A stretch of 64,000 nucleotides of DNA. Source: Candidatus Bathyarchaeia archaeon (lineage in GTDB: Archaea; Thermoproteota; Bathyarchaeia; 40CM-2-53-6). The notes under the pieces are model-generated. The model ran no database searches. It had not been told where the DNA came from and saw nothing but the letters and a program-made list of their open reading frames with translations. The DNA lies in contig DASYWW010000013.1 of NCBI GenBank assembly GCA_035935655.1, positions 62,001-126,000 on the forward strand, written 5' to 3'. The position numbers and the translations under genes are program-made. Below are positions 4,214 through 55,490 of the stretch, piece by piece; within the stretch, counting starts at the first letter, position 1; the number at the start of each line of letters is the position of its first letter.

Positions 4214-4326
4214 GCCGGGATGGCTGAGTGGTTAAAGCGACGGCCTCGAGATCTCAAGTGACAAGGGCCAGGACACGACAGCCGTTGGGCGTCACGCCCT
4301 CGTGGGTTCGAATCCCACTCCCGGCG
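4214..4326 (+). tRNA. tRNA-Ser(CGA) with an intron at 37/38
   Basis: The acceptor stem GCCGGGA (4214-4220) pairs with TCCCGGC (4319-4325), followed by discriminator G and CC but not a full CCA. The anticodon stem is ACGGC (4240-4244) with GCCGT (4281-4285). The loop CTCGAG-A gives anticodon CGA at 4247-4249. A 29-nt insert (about 4251-4279) sits after position 37, the standard archaeal intron site. The long variable arm TGGGCG-TCA-CGCCC and the T-arm GTGGG-TTCGAAT-CCCAC complete a class II serine tRNA; discriminator G fits Ser rather than Leu. Confidence 0.92.
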
Positions 4327-32298: not shown

Positions 32299-32449
32299 TG
32301 GTAGCGGGGGGTGGATTTTCGGGTCCCACACGGGCCCTTCGAACCACCGCTTGAGGATCGAACTTGTATCGATCAATCTCAGGGTTATGAGCCCTGCGGG
32401 TTAAACCTGGGAAGGCTTCTCCTCAACGGAGAATCTACCCCACCCCGCT
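32299..32449 (-). tRNA. initiator tRNA-Met(CAT) with three non-canonical introns
   Basis: Acceptor AGCGGGG (32443-32449) pairs with CCCCGCT (32303-32309), then discriminator A and an encoded CCA (32299-32301). The anticodon arm is CAGGG-CTCATAA-CCCTG: three G-C pairs next to the loop and A1-U72 mark an initiator. The rest only folds if three inserts are removed: about 24 nt in the D-loop (hairpin TTCTCC-GTTGA-GGAGAA), about 26 nt in the variable loop (GATCGA-TACAAGT-TCGATC) and about 22 nt in the T-loop (a GGG/CCC hairpin). The spliced product is 76 nt plus CCA and matches archaeal initiator tRNA almost throughout. There is no intron at 37/38. Confidence 0.9.
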
Positions 32450-32529: not shown

Positions 32530-33891
32530 TCAGACTACTGTCGGAATCAAGACAAGCGATTCTAGAGTCCGGTCGATGAATGTGCTATTTGTTTCTGGTG
32601 ACATAGACCGATTGATTTCATATCGGGAGGCAGGCTTTGTCAGGTGTCTATGCGCCCTAGGAGGTGGGAGATACTCTCCCAAACGAACATCTCGATCATC
32701 AAGTCTTTTGATTCTCTGCGTTTTTGGGAAACGCGCTTTGCATCTCTTGCATCTGAATGCTTGATCTTTTCCCATAGATTCACAGCGAGCTCCGCATCTT
32801 GAACAAAGAGGATTCTCCCATCGGACGGCGTCAACTAGTCTCGTCACTTTGAGTTTTTCAACGTTCATGGTGATTTCTCCGAGTGGCCGACGACGGATTC
32901 CGCCTGAAACAGTAACAAAGTCTCCAGGGATCAGTTGAAGGGCCCCATCGCGAACATCTCCGGCCGGGCTGTAGGCGGCGCAATCAATCTTGCCTGTTTC
33001 GTCACATAGTCCGAAGATCACGTGGCCGCCGCGAATCCTTTCTGGGGCATTGCTGACCTCACCGGTAATAGTGGTGGATTGATAGGGTCGAAGTGTCTCA
33101 ATTGTTCTGTGATTGTTCAGATGCGCGTCGGTTCCCTGGTTTGTCTTGAAGATCATCGCACTGGCGATTGGTTCTTCAACCTCGATTTGTTTGAACGCTT
33201 GAACGAGAGTAACTGGGTCTTCGCCTCGGATTCCAAACAGGACTGGGTCGGGGCCGTGGGGGCAAATGAGTATTCTACCTGTTTCAGGGTCAATGTTATT
33301 GAAAGTTGATCCTTGATACTTTTCATTCATTTGTCGAACCGAATTCTGGTTCACTCTTCGCTCCGTCCCAACGTATTCAGGGGTTCTGTAGGCGATAATC
33401 TCGAAAGTATGGTCCTGGCTGAGGTCGGCTCCAACACCCGCAAACGCTCCAATCAGTCCTCGGGACCCTTTGAGCAAGAATACTTCTGCGTCTACGACGC
33501 CTGCAATGTGTCTCGCTTCCCGAACTGAGAGAACATCGTGTAACGCTCTGGTGGAAAAATCTCTCAGCACTGAAGGCACAGGGCGCTTGAGGAAGACCAC
33601 GGCTGGGTCTGTTGATCGACGAGCAAGGTCTGAGGTTTTTTGGACAGCCGCAATAGCGATTTTTTTCGCGTCTGCTACCTCATCTTCTTTGAGATTGAAG
33701 TGAAGTGAAAGAGCTCCGTTTCCTCGGGTCTTCCAGGGAATGTTAGGGTTCAGTCGTACTAGCCAGGGATAGTCGAGGGGCTTGAATCCTTTGGAGACTA
33801 ATTCGCGAAAAATGAGTGCAACGGTGTATGTGGTGCATCCTCCGAGTCTAGAGTCAGTGTCGTCAATTCCGATGTGAAACTCAGTTCGCAC
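32530..33891 (-). CDS. tiaS: tRNA(Ile2) 2-agmatinylcytidine synthetase TiaS
   Basis: A 453-residue enzyme that attaches agmatine to C34 of tRNA-Ile(CAU), letting it read AUA. The N-terminal HIGIDDTDSRLGGCTTYTV motif is the family signature. The middle catalytic domain has GLIGAFAGVGADL and the EYVGTERRVN segment. An OB-fold (TTITGEVSNAP onward) and a zinc ribbon (CSRCGARC and CKRCKARF) follow. The start MRTEFHIGIDDTDS at 33891 is standard. The initiator tRNA gene lies 80 bases downstream on the same strand. Confidence 0.96.
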   Translation of the reverse strand: MRTEFHIGIDDTDSRLGGCTTYTVALIFRELVSKGFKPLDYPWLVRLNPNIPWKTRGNGALSLHFNLKEDEVADAKKIAIAAVQKTSDLARRSTDPAVVFLKRPVPSVLRDFSTRALHDVLSVREARHIAGVVDAEVFLLKGSRGLIGAFAGVGADLSQDHTFEIIAYRTPEYVGTERRVNQNSVRQMNEKYQGSTFNNIDPETGRILICPHGPDPVLFGIRGEDPVTLVQAFKQIEVEEPIASAMIFKTNQGTDAHLNNHRTIETLRPYQSTTITGEVSNAPERIRGGHVIFGLCDETGKIDCAAYSPAGDVRDGALQLIPGDFVTVSGGIRRRPLGEITMNVEKLKVTRLVDAVRWENPLCSRCGARCESMGKDQAFRCKRCKARFPKTQRIKRLDDRDVRLGEYLPPPRAHRHLTKPASRYEINRSMSPETNSTFIDRTLESLVLIPTVV

Positions 33892-34276: not shown

Positions 34277-35474
34277 CTCTCCAACCTAACTAGGTGCTAT
34301 CCTAAGTTGGTGCCTTGTGCTTGCAATCAAGTCGGTAAAGCAGAACTATGCTCCATCGACGGAGGTTCTCGAACTTCTCGAGATATTCAGAAGAATGGTA
34401 AACCAATGTCTAGTAATTGGGCTTTCGCAGAACGTCTCGTCCCTCAAGAGCCTATGCCTCCTCTCATACAAAGAGCTGAAGGGATATGCGTTGCCGTCGT
34501 GCTACAAGCTCTGCGCCATATCCCGAGCCGCAGGCATACTGGCCTCAAGAAAGAAGTCTCTAAGGAGAGGTTTCCCGACAAAGAGTCCGCACGCAGTCAA
34601 GCCCCTTCTGATCTCATGTTACAACTTCAAGGTAGAGAATGGTTATTTGCGAATACCTATGGGCCGAAAGATCTACGAAAGAATTCCTCTAACGAACCAC
34701 ACCGCCTCGGTGCTTTCCGACAAAACCTTGCGCGTGCGCTCCTTCACGCTTACCGCACATACGATGAGCCTCTGTGTCTCAAAGGAGATCGATGTGCTTA
34801 TGTGCGTAGGTACGGTTGGTGTCGACCGCAATCTGCGCAACCTGACTTGCGGGGATGAGGAGACGGTTCTCCATTATGACCTATCCAGGGCTGTTGACAT
34901 AACCGACACAACATCAAGAATACTATCTTCCTTCAAGAGGAACGATTGTAGGGTCGGCCAGAAGCTCGCGTCAAAATATGGTAGACGCCGGAGGAACCGG
35001 ACCATTAATCTCCTGCACAATGCCACGAAGTCGATTGTTGAAAGGGCTTTCGAGAATCGAAAGGCGGTTGTCCTCGAAAACATCCGTGGGATCCGGAGAC
35101 TCTACCAAAAGGGCAACTGGCAGGGGAGGAGCTTCAGGGGGAGAATGAACGGCTGGTCGTTTGGGGAGGCTCAACGTCAGATCGAGTATAAGGCCGCTTG
35201 GACAGGCCTACCTGTGGTACGTTTGTCGAGACGTGAAACGTTTGGCACCAGTAGCATGTGTCCGAAATGCGGGGAGAGACTCCAACCGGACGGCAGACAA
35301 GGAAGATGTCTTTGGTGCGATAAGTGTGAGATGTGGGCCGACCGCGATGTTGTTGCTGTGGTAAACATTTCACGGCGTGGACGGTTGAGGTTCGACCGTT
35401 CAAAAGGCGGGGCAGCTGAAGCGTTGAGAGGGAACCCGACGCCTACGGTAATCCCTGGAGTCGATGCCTCGAAG
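34277..35474 (+). mobile_element. TnpB-only IS605/IS1341-type element, copy 2
   Basis: The left end carries the same CTCTCCAAC (34277-34285), 40 bases before the tnpB start, as copy 1. The segment CCAACCTAACTAGG...CCTAAGTTGG can fold. The right end is set where similarity to copy 1 stops, after GGAGTCGATGCC-TCGAAG (to about 35474). No tnpA is present. Confidence 0.7.
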
Positions 35475-35498
35475 CTAACTTATCCTGCGATAAGCTAG
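34317..35498 (+). CDS. tnpB: TnpB, RNA-guided RuvC nuclease (copy 2)
   Basis: A 393-residue TnpB, clearly a diverged relative of the copy at 2.1-3.4 kb. RuvC residues are present: Asp in GVDRNLRNL, Glu in VVLENIRGI, and the final Asp in DRDVVAVVNI. The zinc ribbon is CPKCGERL and CDKCEMW. The C-terminus is GNPTPTVIPGVDA as in copy 1 but stops soon after the element end. GTG start at 34317. With no transposase near, it may act as a guided nuclease that keeps the element in place. Confidence 0.93.
   Translation: MLAIKSVKQNYAPSTEVLELLEIFRRMVNQCLVIGLSQNVSSLKSLCLLSYKELKGYALPSCYKLCAISRAAGILASRKKSLRRGFPTKSPHAVKPLLISCYNFKVENGYLRIPMGRKIYERIPLTNHTASVLSDKTLRVRSFTLTAHTMSLCVSKEIDVLMCVGTVGVDRNLRNLTCGDEETVLHYDLSRAVDITDTTSRILSSFKRNDCRVGQKLASKYGRRRRNRTINLLHNATKSIVERAFENRKAVVLENIRGIRRLYQKGNWQGRSFRGRMNGWSFGEAQRQIEYKAAWTGLPVVRLSRRETFGTSSMCPKCGERLQPDGRQGRCLWCDKCEMWADRDVVAVVNISRRGRLRFDRSKGGAAEALRGNPTPTVIPGVDASKLTYPAIS
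35330..35474 (+). ncRNA. candidate omega-RNA at the right end of copy 2
   Basis: The sequence GGGAACCCGACGCCTACGG followed by TAATCCC and GGAGTCGATGCC is shared with copy 1, strongly conserved as expected for a guide-RNA scaffold that overlaps the end of tnpB. The guide would begin near 35475, entering a CTTATC-CTGC-GATAAG hairpin. The 5' limit is estimated. Confidence 0.5.
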
Positions 35499-50828: not shown

Positions 50829-53800
50829 CTAGCTTGCCGGTGCTGGTATCTGCTGAAGCCCTGGCTTCGAATCAGCAAACTGCTGTGAGAAGCGCTCGTA
50901 CATCCTAAGCTCTTGGCTAGAAATCGGCTTGACCTTCTGCATGGCCTCGTCAAAATGACGCTTAACCACCTTCAAGCCCTTGGCTCGCTTCTTCGCATCC
51001 TCCGGATCCTTCGCCTTTCCAATATGATCCTTGATTGACAACATCACAGCGGTGTTGCAGATCGATGCGATATCTGCTCCTGTGTAGCCTTGCGTCTTTC
51101 TAGCTAGTTCGTCGAGTTTCACATCGTCCGCCAACGGCGTTTTCTTGGTATGGATGCGAAAGATCTGCTTCCTCGCCTCCAAATCCGGCGGAGGGACCAG
51201 CAGCATCCTGTCAAATCTCCCGGGTCTGAGCAGCGCTGGGTCGACAATATCGGGTCTATTCGTTGCCGCGATAATGACGACGTTTCTCAGCTCTTCGAGT
51301 CCATCCATCTCGGTCAGAAACTGGCTGATCACCCTCTCTGTCACGTTAGAGTCGTTCGAGCCGCTTCCGCGAACGGGCGCTACCGAATCAATTTCGTCAA
51401 AGAATATGATGCAGGGCGATGCTTGTCGAGCTTTGCGAAAGATCTCTCTAACGGCCTTCTCGGACTCTCCTACGAACTTGTTAAGCAATTCCGGACCCTT
51501 GACGCTGATGAAGTTGGCTTCGCTCTCGTTCGCAGCCGCCTTGGCTAGAAGCGTCTTACCGGTTCCGGGAGGACCGTAAAGGAGGAGTCCCTTCGGGGGA
51601 ACAGCGTTCATCTGGGCGAAGAGTTCAGGATATTTGAGTGGCCACTCGATCGCCTCTCGAAGTTCCTCCTTCACTCCCTCCAGCCCGCCGATATCGTCCC
51701 ATTTGATATCTGGGACCTCCACCAGAACTTCTCGCATCGCGGAAGGTTCCACCTCCTTGAGGGCTTCTTGGAAGTCGCTCATTCGCACGATGATCTTGTT
51801 GAGGACCTCAGCCGGAATGTTCTCCGCTTCCAAGTTGATCTCAGGCAGAATCCTGCGCAGAGCTCTGATAGCCGCCTCCTTCGCAAGAGCCTCTAGGTCG
51901 GCGCCCACAAACCCGTGGGTGACATCAGCTAGCTTCTTCAGATCCACATCCTCGGCCAAAGGCATCCCTCTGGTGTGAATCTGCATGATTTCCAACCGGC
52001 CATCGCGGTCGGGGACCCCAATCTCGATTTCCCGGTCGAACCTTCCCGGCCGGCGCAGCGCTGGGTCGATCGAGTTGATCCGGTTTGTATTGTGAAGCAG
52101 TACGGGATTCTCGCCGCCAAAGAAAGCCTCGCCTTCGGCACCGCAAATATCATAGACATACCCGTCGTAGGGTAATTTCTTGACAGACCTTACGGTCGGT
52201 CTTTTCTGGGCTAGTGATTTCTTTACAGGTTGATTGTTGAAGGGATTGTTTGTCTTGCCGAATCCTAGCCTAAAAGCGGTCGTCTCTTTGGTTACAAGGG
52301 TGTCTCTGATCATCCGGCCCGCGGGAACCTTGTAGGACCCGAGATAAGTCTTGATCCCATGCATCCGACATAGCCAGTTCAAATCGAGAATCAAATTCTT
52401 GCTAACGGCGGTGATTACCAGTTTGCCGTCCTTCGGACCATTGTGACCATCCCCTCGCGCCTCGCCTTCTAGAAATTCCATGAAGAAATCTGTGGGAACT
52501 GTAAACATGAAAGATGGCAGGCGTTTTTCGTACGCGTTGTGTCCAAAGAGGTTGCCGAACAGGTCCTTTACTGGTTGGCATGAGTAGTAAATCGAATGCG
52601 CGTTGGAGTGTTTCCTCTCGGTGGACGGCGACATGTCGAAAGCCTTCAGCATCAACAATTTGACATCCTCGATGTACGTCCTCTCGTGGCTGCCGAAAGT
52701 GAAAGTAAGCCCGCTCCTCGAAGCTGAACCTTCGGCGAGATAATATCCAAAGAGTCTGCTCAACTCGGGAGAGAGCGCCACTATTCGAGGTATCCCTGCA
52801 AGGGCCCATCTTACAGGATGCGGGACCACATCATTGTGTCGCCAGAGTTGTACAGTGCTTGGGTGGACGCCTGCTTGAAGTGCAATAAGGTGTGACTGGC
52901 CTCGTGGTCCTGGGGTATCCTGAAGGAACGTGGCTTGATTGTATGCCTGTATAGTCTTGTTGTCATATAGTTGGAAGTAGACGGGCTCGTAAGGCTCGAA
53001 TGCATGAGCTCTAGTCTCGCGAGTGTTTTGTTTTAGCCTCAATTTGAAAGGTAGGTCCACAAGGTTCTCGCCAATCTTTAGCTGGTCTACTCTCTTTGCT
53101 TCTATTCCCTTTCGAGTTCTGACAAACACAGAATGACTGCCCGTGGCCCGAATCCTGCCTCCAAGATATTCGATCTCGAAGAGCTCGTGCACCTTATGTC
53201 TGAAGACAGATTTGAAAGCCTGGAATCTACTGCCCCCGAAGAAAGTGTATTTCCGAAATCGTGGGTTTGTTGATCTCATTGGCTGAAGGCCGAGAACACG
53301 GTAACCCTCCACGTTCGGTTCAGAGCCTTCCTCTCCACATGGGAAGAAGGAGTCGACAAAGGTCCCTATCGGTGTCAGCTTGATCTTGTTCTCTCTGTCC
53401 TTAACCATGATCGGGGTGTCACCAGTCACACTCGCGCCAATGACTACGACCTTTCCTCGGGACTGCAGCCCGTCCATCACTGAGAGTAGCTGAGAGACGA
53501 CGCGTTTCTCAACTTCTCCCGTGACCTCCTCGCGTTTCGGCGCGATCGAATCTATCTCGTCAATGAAGATGATGGATGGCGCGTTCTCCTGGGCCTCCTT
53601 AAAGATCTCACGAAGCCTCTCCTCGCTCTCACCATAGAACTTGCTCATTATCTCGGGCCCGCCGATACTGTAGAAGTTCGCGTTCGTCTCGCTCGCCACC
53701 GCCTTCGCGAGCAACGTCTTACCGGTATTGTGGCTCAGTAGGCCGTTCGCGAAGAAGGAGTGGGTACTCGGAACTTCAAAGTCGTATACTCTTTGCCATC

Positions 53801-55490
53801 CTTCGAGCTTCCTTACTGTTTTGATCTTCTCGAAGTCGTCATTAAGATAGGCGAGGTTACGCCTGTAGCCCCTGACTATGGCTTCCAGACGCGCTCCCTT
53901 CCGGATAGAGATGAAGCCTATCTGTTCCTTGAACTTGTTTACTACGTCCTTACCACGGATCGCTAACACGTAAAATGTTGAGTCTCTTCCTCCTCTGGTG
54001 GTATAGGGGCCTCCGTGAATCCTTGATGTAATTCCAAACCTCAGAAGGAGTGTCTGCACTTCCTCCAACAATTTCCGGTGCTTGCTTTTGAGGAAGATAC
54101 CGCGGTAATTGTCGGCTTTTCTTGCGTAGCCATCTCCTTCGAAAGCGCCTCGAAGGAATGCTGCCACAACTGTGTTCGGTGACATGAGTATCGGTGTTGG
54201 TACTCTCTTCTCTATACGAGACCAGTATTTACCGAAGAATTCAGCGAGTCCTCTGTTGTCGAATCGCAGCACATTGCATTGTTTGCCTGATTTTGGAACC
54301 ATGTATCCTTCAACACCGAAAATCTCCATCCCTTTCCTTATTGCAGTAGCAAGTTCCTCTTCATGACTCTCGATAGTGAAGAATACTCTGTCCTTGCCAG
54401 CAGTCCCCTCTGCAATGAATATGCCAAAGAGTTCTCCCAATCGCTCGTCCCAAAACCTAGGCATGAGCGGTTTGGTCCATAATCTTACCATGTTGATTGT
54501 ATCGCTGACAATAACGTATTGTGTAGGCGAAGGAATCCACTTGATCGTCTTCACTCGATCCTGGGGTTTGAGTTTCTCCGCCTCTGTCCACCCATGCTCA
54601 GTCATGAGAGGATGGTTCAGTGTGGTCCGGAGCCTTTTTCCGGTCTCGGTGATTATCTCCATCGTTTCAGGTACATCATAGATGTGAAGGGCTTTCGCAC
54701 TGCCCGGAGGGTAGATAGGAAGGTCTGCGATGTAGACGCCAGGAAGCACTCCTTTTGCGAGTTCTTCTATCCGAATTAATCCACCGTTTTCAAGGGCGAT
54801 CAACGAATCGCCAACAACGCAACCTGGGGGTCCGTGGAGAAGGACTCCTTTCGGAGCTTCGACTCCGAGTCGTTCGAACAGTTCTGGATGTCTCAAGGGA
54901 AGCTCGATCATCTCCCGGACCTTCTGGATCACAGGCCGAAGTCCTCCGATGTCCTCGTACGCGATCCTTGGAATCGCCCTAGGCGCTTCCTTCACCTGTT
55001 CCCCAACAGTAACTTCTGTCTGGTCCGTGACGATGACTGCTTCTGCGGTCGGGGTGGTGCTAGTGACTACAAGGTCGATTTTGCGACCCATGACGTTTAT
55101 CGGGACATAGTCTCCCCGTGCTAAGACTCGGCCTTCCAGGATCTGGCTGAGATATTCTTCTCCCCCGACAATCCGGAGTGGTTCGGTTGGTGCGAGGGTG
55201 ATACGTTGGGCGATCTTTGCTGTTATCTTCCTGATCGTGACCTTGTCGTCTATTGAAACGCCAGCGTTATTCCTAAGATAACCATCTATGCGGATTGTTC
55301 CCTTGCCCGAATCTGACTCGTATCCAGGCCAGGAGAGAGCGGTTGTCTTCTTCTTCCCAATGATCTGGATCACATCGCCGGAGGTTAGACCAAGCTCATC
55401 CACAACTTTTGGGTCAACTCGCGCAATGCCTCGGCCTACATCTCTCTGATACGCGTCAGCGACTCTAAGAGTAAGGGTCTTCTCTGGCAA
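50829..55490 (-). CDS. cdc48: CDC48/VCP-like AAA+ ATPase with two inteins
   Basis: The 1553-residue precursor gives about 740 residues after removal of two inteins, the usual size. The N domain (double-psi barrel, residues 1-180) is followed by two AAA modules. D1 Walker A is GPPG plus TGKT, interrupted by intein 1 between them; D1 Walker B is [14 protein letters not shown]. Intein 2 sits in the GA-TNR sensor-1 region of D1. D2 has an intact [28 protein letters not shown] and [21 protein letters not shown]48 unfolds proteins and feeds the proteasome. The C-terminus (QQIPAPAS) is short. Confidence 0.97.
52089..53432 (-). other. intein 2 of CDC48 (448 residues)
   Basis: It begins with Ser ([10 protein letters not shown]) after GA and ends PVLLHN before Thr of TNR. 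Block B is [19 protein letters not shown] helices are seen at [11 protein letters not shown] and EGEARGDGH. The endonuclease region resembles that of the NuoI intein. It is inserted in the sensor-1 Asn loop (GATN), so an unspliced protein would lack D1 activity. Confidence 0.94.
53727..54821 (-). other. intein 1 of CDC48 (365 residues)
   Basis: It begins with Cys ([13 protein letters not shown]) after GPPG and ends [10 protein letters not shown] before Thr of TGKT, splitting the D1 P-loop. Block B is [19 protein letters not shown] helices: [11 protein letters not shown] and [10 protein letters not shown]. Splicing residues are all present. Confidence 0.95.

Follow-up and report, generated by a model that had tools for sequence, protein, structure and literature searches.

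A three-intron, single-copy initiator tRNA gene in a soil bathyarchaeon, predicted to be spliced by EndA and RtcB

Archaeal tRNA introns are recognised through a bulge-helix-bulge (BHB) motif, in which a 4-bp helix between the 5′ exon and the intron is flanked by 3-nt bulges, each cut between its second and third bases (PMC4307357). In Thermoproteales (e.g. islandicum), tRNA genes with several non-canonical BHB introns, up to three per gene, occur together with an (alpha-beta)2 splicing endonuclease (EndA) (PMC4390854, PMC4090602), and three is given as the archaeal maximum in PMC8450103, PMC4033280 and PMC4390854. Among uncultured soil archaea of the Asgard groups Atabeyarchaeia and Freyarchaeia, most tRNA genes are interrupted, more than half with multiple and often non-canonical introns (PMC11291895). 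The initiator tRNA gene of Thermofilum pendens is permuted, with a disruption at 59/60 and one intron at 37/38 (PMC3978253, PMC4090602). Outside Archaea, tRNA-Ile(UAU) of the red alga Cyanidioschyzon merolae has three introns, in the D-, anticodon and T-arms (PMC9602550).

The initiator tRNA-Met gene described here lies in a window of 64,000 nt (the whole stretch of DNA that was analysed) from a metagenome-assembled genome (MAG) of the class Bathyarchaeia with 96% completeness and 4.5% contamination. Its plan and predicted (alpha-beta)2 EndA resemble those of Thermoproteales, but it is an initiator gene, all three of its introns are non-canonical, its relatives reach four introns rather than three, and it comes from Bathyarchaeia, a class unmentioned in the available parts of PMC4390854 and PMC4090602. 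The window genome shares a soil origin and intron-rich tRNA genes with Atabeyarchaeia and Freyarchaeia, which belong to another phylum and for which the available part of PMC11291895 permits comparison of tRNA genes generally, not of the initiator. Intron 3 interrupts the same T-loop position that is disrupted in the Thermofilum pendens initiator, whereas the window gene is collinear, has three introns and leaves 37/38 free. The Cyanidioschyzon case differs in being eukaryotic, in concerning another isoacceptor and in having an intron in the anticodon arm.

Read directly on the minus strand, the first half of the gene is AGCGGGG TG GGGT AG (24 nt) CCAGGTTTA ACCC G CAGGG CTCATAA CCCTG AGAT, and the second half continues with (26 nt) C GGTGG TTCGAA (22 nt) T CCACC CCCCGCT A CCA (Table 1). 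The exons are contiguous and in order, so that the gene is neither permuted nor split; it is a collinear tRNA gene with three BHB introns, of the multi-intron kind known in archaea. The preliminary description had assigned introns of these lengths to the D-, variable and T-loops and had regarded 37/38 as free; both statements agree exactly with the direct reading, in which 37/38 is uninterrupted. Among 19 family genes, 16 have TTTAAA or TTTAAT at −32/−33. A TnpB-like RNA-guided endonuclease gene is also found in the window (34317-35498, plus strand).

Table 1. Initiator tRNA gene and adjacent features, in window coordinates
Feature	Position	Strand	Remarks
Initiator tRNA-Met(CAU), whole gene, CCA encoded	32299..32449	-	151 nt; mature product 79 nt
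Exon 1, positions 1-15: 5′ strands of acceptor and D-stem	32435..32449	-	
Intron 1, 24 nt, 15/16, D-loop	32411..32434	-	Bulges AG/A (cut at slash) and TC/C; central GGGU with GCCU; inner UUCUCC with GGAGAA
Exon 2, positions 16-47: D-loop to variable loop	32376..32410	-	Anticodon arm GGGCUCAUAACCC intact
Intron 2, 26 nt, 47/48, variable loop	32350..32375	-	Bulges AU/U and AG/C; central UGAG with CUCA; inner GAUCGA with UCGAUC; helix covaries
Exon 3, positions 48-59: T-stem 5′ strand and UUCGAA	32338..32349	-	
Intron 3, 22 nt, 59/60, T-loop	32316..32337	-	Bulges AA/G and AA/U; central UUCG with CGAA; outer helix is T-stem GGUGG with CCACC
Exon 4, positions 60-76: U60, 3′ strands of T-stem and acceptor, A73, CCA	32299..32315	-	
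TATA-like TTTAAA	32477..32482	-	First base 33 nt upstream of tRNA 5′ end
TiaS-like ORF (agmatinylcytidine synthetase for tRNA-Ile2), upstream neighbour	32530..33891	-	Score under the NCBIfam cut-off for the TiaS name

Removal of the 24, 26 and 22 nt yields AGCGGGGTGGGGTAGCCAGGTTTAACCCGCAGGGCTCATAACCCTGAGATCGGTGGTTCGAATCCACCCCCCGCTACCA, a perfect tRNA of 79 nt, which ARAGORN calls tRNA-Met(cat) with a clean, complete cloverleaf and an A1-U72 pair. The anticodon arm, GGGCUCAUAACCC, presents CAU on a stem closed by three G-C pairs (29-31/39-41), as in archaeal initiators, in keeping with the identity first proposed for the gene. The spliced form differs from equal-length zero-intron initiators of the same class at 5-11 of 79 positions. 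The warning that ordinary tools may miss the gene was justified: unspliced, it receives no tRNA call from ARAGORN, which calls no tRNA anywhere in the 64,000-nt window, and it scores 19.6 bits with the Rfam tRNA model, under the cut-off of 29. The preliminary description had also taken the gene for the only initiator and proposed a check of the genome. Searches of the 96%-complete genome, for an initiator anticodon arm with up to one mismatch and by BLAST of the mature sequence, found no second copy.

The BHB is complete at all three predicted junctions, with central, inner and outer helices of (4,6,2), (4,6,2) and (4,2,5) bp, respectively, as measured by a geometry script; intron 3 is placed at a shift of +2 relative to the equivalent placement given by the aligner. 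No other register within shifts of −4 to +4 of the aligned junction provided four central pairs. Over 20,000 dinucleotide shuffles per intron, the probability of a 4-bp centre with at least the observed inner helix was 0.0019 for intron 1, 0 for intron 2 and 0.042 for intron 3, the last value being modest because its inner helix comprises only 2 bp before a bulged base. The claim that each insert has its own hairpin and is a BHB intron thus stands as to the BHB but needs adjustment, since the central helix is formed between the 5′ exon and the 3′ end of the intron. A free-energy model, which gives no credit for protein binding, puts the cost of forming each BHB at about 1-6 kcal/mol, and of all three at about 10 kcal/mol, relative to the best fold.

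Among homologues (12-41 distinct genes per site), the BHB helices vary with compensatory changes. For example, exon base 57 may be G or A according to lineage, and of 26 distinct genes 24 have the matching partner in the 59/60 intron (G-C in 15, A-U in 9). The public members of the genome's group are MAGs named Bathyarchaeota or Crenarchaeota, largely from soil as judged from the record names, and belong to the GTDB order 40CM-2-53-6. The identical 79 nt results in silico from 18 distinct precursors with 2-4 introns, the set consisting of 19 records, namely 18 GTDB genomes and one labelled Njordarchaeum. In this last record (JAUQYT010000360.1, labelled Candidatus Njordarchaeum guaymaensis), the initiator gene has three introns (29/30, 47/48 and 59/60); either the contig was binned wrongly or the gene belongs to a lineage beyond the class. 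In one relative (G012), conserved base 54 is altered, so that the T-loop starts with CTC rather than TTC; the alignment parser fused the two introns of this gene owing to the change, and visual inspection restored the count of two.

Introns 2 and 3 occur in each of the 19 recovered family genes. Ten of these genes also have intron 1; the other nine lack it with exact borders, and one of the nine (G019) instead has two further introns. The borders of intron 1 are given independently by relatives that read GGGGTAG/CCAGG with nothing in between. Since the initiator gene lies close to a TiaS-like gene in most family members, these genes represent one orthologous locus. When intron 1 is traced over the 16 genomes of a TiaS tree, its distribution calls for about five changes, of which at least three are forced by well supported branches. 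A similar intron (TTCTTC...GAAGAAGCC) occupies 15/16 in another family of the order, which suggests that intron 1 is old and has been lost several times; the dissimilar 44-nt version in one genome (G014) may be a new gain. Loss of intron 1 with retention of introns 2 and 3 would speak against a straightforward exchange of the gene for a fully spliced copy.

These data bear on the possibility that the locus is a decaying initiator pseudogene with random insertions, the functional initiator residing elsewhere. Failure of standard tRNA finders to recognise the gene and the incompleteness of the MAG would be compatible with such decay, but the same exon sequences recur throughout most of the genus and among relatives in other families, searches of this genome and of the rest of the genus gave no other initiator, and the insertions retain BHBs with compensating changes. 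We therefore regard decay as very improbable.

The window genome encodes EndA in two separate genes, an alpha subunit of 189 aa and a beta paralogue of 173 aa. EndA alpha matches the catalytic subunit of Aeropyrum pernix (3P1Z; E-value = 1.7e−41) and has the Tyr/His/Lys triad as well as a Lys aligned to K44 of the crenarchaea-specific loop, whereas EndA beta has neither the catalytic His region nor the loop. By gene content, the enzyme is predicted to be a tetramer of the crenarchaeal (alpha-beta)2 type. The loop lysine has been linked to the cutting of relaxed and non-canonical sites (PMC6379350), and broad-specificity splicing has been tied to this EndA type together with BHB geometry (PMC6379350, PMC4307357). 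Because every alpha subunit in the class-wide comparison keeps the lysine, its presence would permit the higher intron load of the order but is not enough to account for it. RtcB, the likely tRNA ligase, is encoded at G000:C11:125223-128030 (L167, L168) by an ORF of 1006 aa, in which two matching parts lie far apart, as expected for an intein; if so interrupted, the enzyme that joins the exons of these many interrupted tRNAs would in turn depend on protein splicing. Intein signatures, possibly of two inteins, are also found in a CDC48-family AAA ATPase ORF of the window (50829-55490, minus strand; 1553 aa).

In the proposed pathway, a 151-nt precursor would be transcribed from the TATA-box promoter, heterotetrameric EndA would cut both strands of the three BHB motifs, and RtcB would join the exons into a standard initiator tRNA of 79 nt whose CCA is encoded in the gene. 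BHB1 would take the 5′ strand of the D-stem and so replace this stem, BHB2 would take U42-G45 in competition with the lower anticodon stem, and BHB3 would be built on the intact T-stem as its outer helix. For these reasons, excision is likely to be stepwise, with refolding.

Alternatively, the segments might leave by a route other than EndA, such as self-splicing, or might be retained as expansion segments of an unusual tRNA. Introns of 22-26 nt do leave a large foldable precursor. However, group I and group II introns are generally far longer, the BHB geometry is exact, retained inserts would break D-loop, variable-loop and T-loop elements needed by the initiator, and intron 1 is missing altogether from close relatives; we give this alternative even less weight than decay. 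An assembly or binning artefact, conceivable for a metagenome-assembled genome, is in practice refuted by the same exon-intron plan at orthologous loci in many separate family assemblies, mostly beside the same TiaS-like gene, and its probability is negligible. The BHBs, the conserved product, covariation, the exact absence of intron 1 from relatives and the EndA and RtcB genes instead argue that this is almost certainly a functional single-copy initiator gene of a soil bathyarchaeon, spliced by EndA and RtcB to a standard 79-nt tRNA. The gene is extreme but of a known kind, and the pathway is known; introns of this type are well known in archaea, and it is the degree of fragmentation in an essential initiator gene that is unusual.

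We surveyed relatives with a pattern that requires an uninterrupted 15-nt 5′ end of the gene, counting once each the duplicates DVMM_2 (of G037) and ex4484_205 (of G252). From the 38 genomes of the order, 29 initiator genes were recovered, of which 26 have at least two introns (2-4) and 18 at least three; nine genomes are unclassified because an intron at the 5′ end, another 5′ sequence or a missing contig escapes the pattern. The three introns of the window gene had been called unusual; their number stands, but the gene is no isolated oddity, as multi-intron initiators are the rule in the order and introns 2 and 3 are family-wide. Among 112 loci sampled from the rest of the class, 70 have no intron, 38 have one and four have more, and in a sample drawn from different classes of the same phylum, all but one of the genes parsed as initiators contain 0-2 insertions. 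D-loop insertions in two genomes (G210, apparent; G170, 55 nt) contain no BHB and were not relied on, and one locus (L250, G205) is not a tRNA. In three further genomes (G274, G304 and G339; L319, L324 and L325), the 3′ part of the initiator does not follow base 59, as expected for a permuted initiator of the Thermofilum pendens type.

Two relatives have four introns. In archaeon RBG_16_50_20 (MEMY01000017.1; G019) they are located at 29/30, 37/38, 47/48 and 59/60, and splicing in silico yields exactly the 79 nt of the window gene. In ex4484_205 (NJEE01000001.1; G252), assigned outside Bathyarchaeia by the genome collection, they are at 22/23, 37/38, 47/48 and 59/60, and the spliced form differs at two positions. 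The 37/38 intron of both forms three of the four central pairs. A search of a limited literature collection found no archaeal tRNA with four introns. Judged from sequence, both initiators appear to exceed the published maximum of three. Probably, the initiator is an intron hot spot with at least six BHB sites (15/16, 22/23, 29/30, 37/38, 47/48 and 59/60) occupied in varied combinations, which reaches up to four introns in two separate lineages, above the published three, and from which single introns have been removed exactly and repeatedly while their neighbours stayed.

With the number of Rfam matches standing in for a full census of tRNAs and introns, 19 tRNAs are recognised in the window genome, 12-19 across the family and 24-42 in class members outside the order. 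Many of the recognised genes are interrupted too. Given this low count and these interruptions, fragmentation looks genome-wide among the recovered tRNA genes, and the initiator does not look singled out. The window holds a second tRNA gene (4214-4326, plus strand; found by Rfam, missed by ARAGORN), probably Ser(CGA), whose variable arm is long and whose anticodon seems to be followed by an intron. At G000:C24:27514-27627 (L175), a further tRNA with a CAU anticodon, either elongator Met or Ile2, has apparent D-loop and anticodon-loop introns.

Routine annotation misses such genes and could report genomes without an initiator. The four-intron relatives and the clean presence/absence series of intron 1 are of most interest, and comparing close relatives that differ in intron 1 at this locus would allow direct tests of BHB intron gain and loss and of the excision order in multi-intron genes. 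Translation in this group would hinge on two to four successful splicing events for each initiator tRNA, all from one gene.
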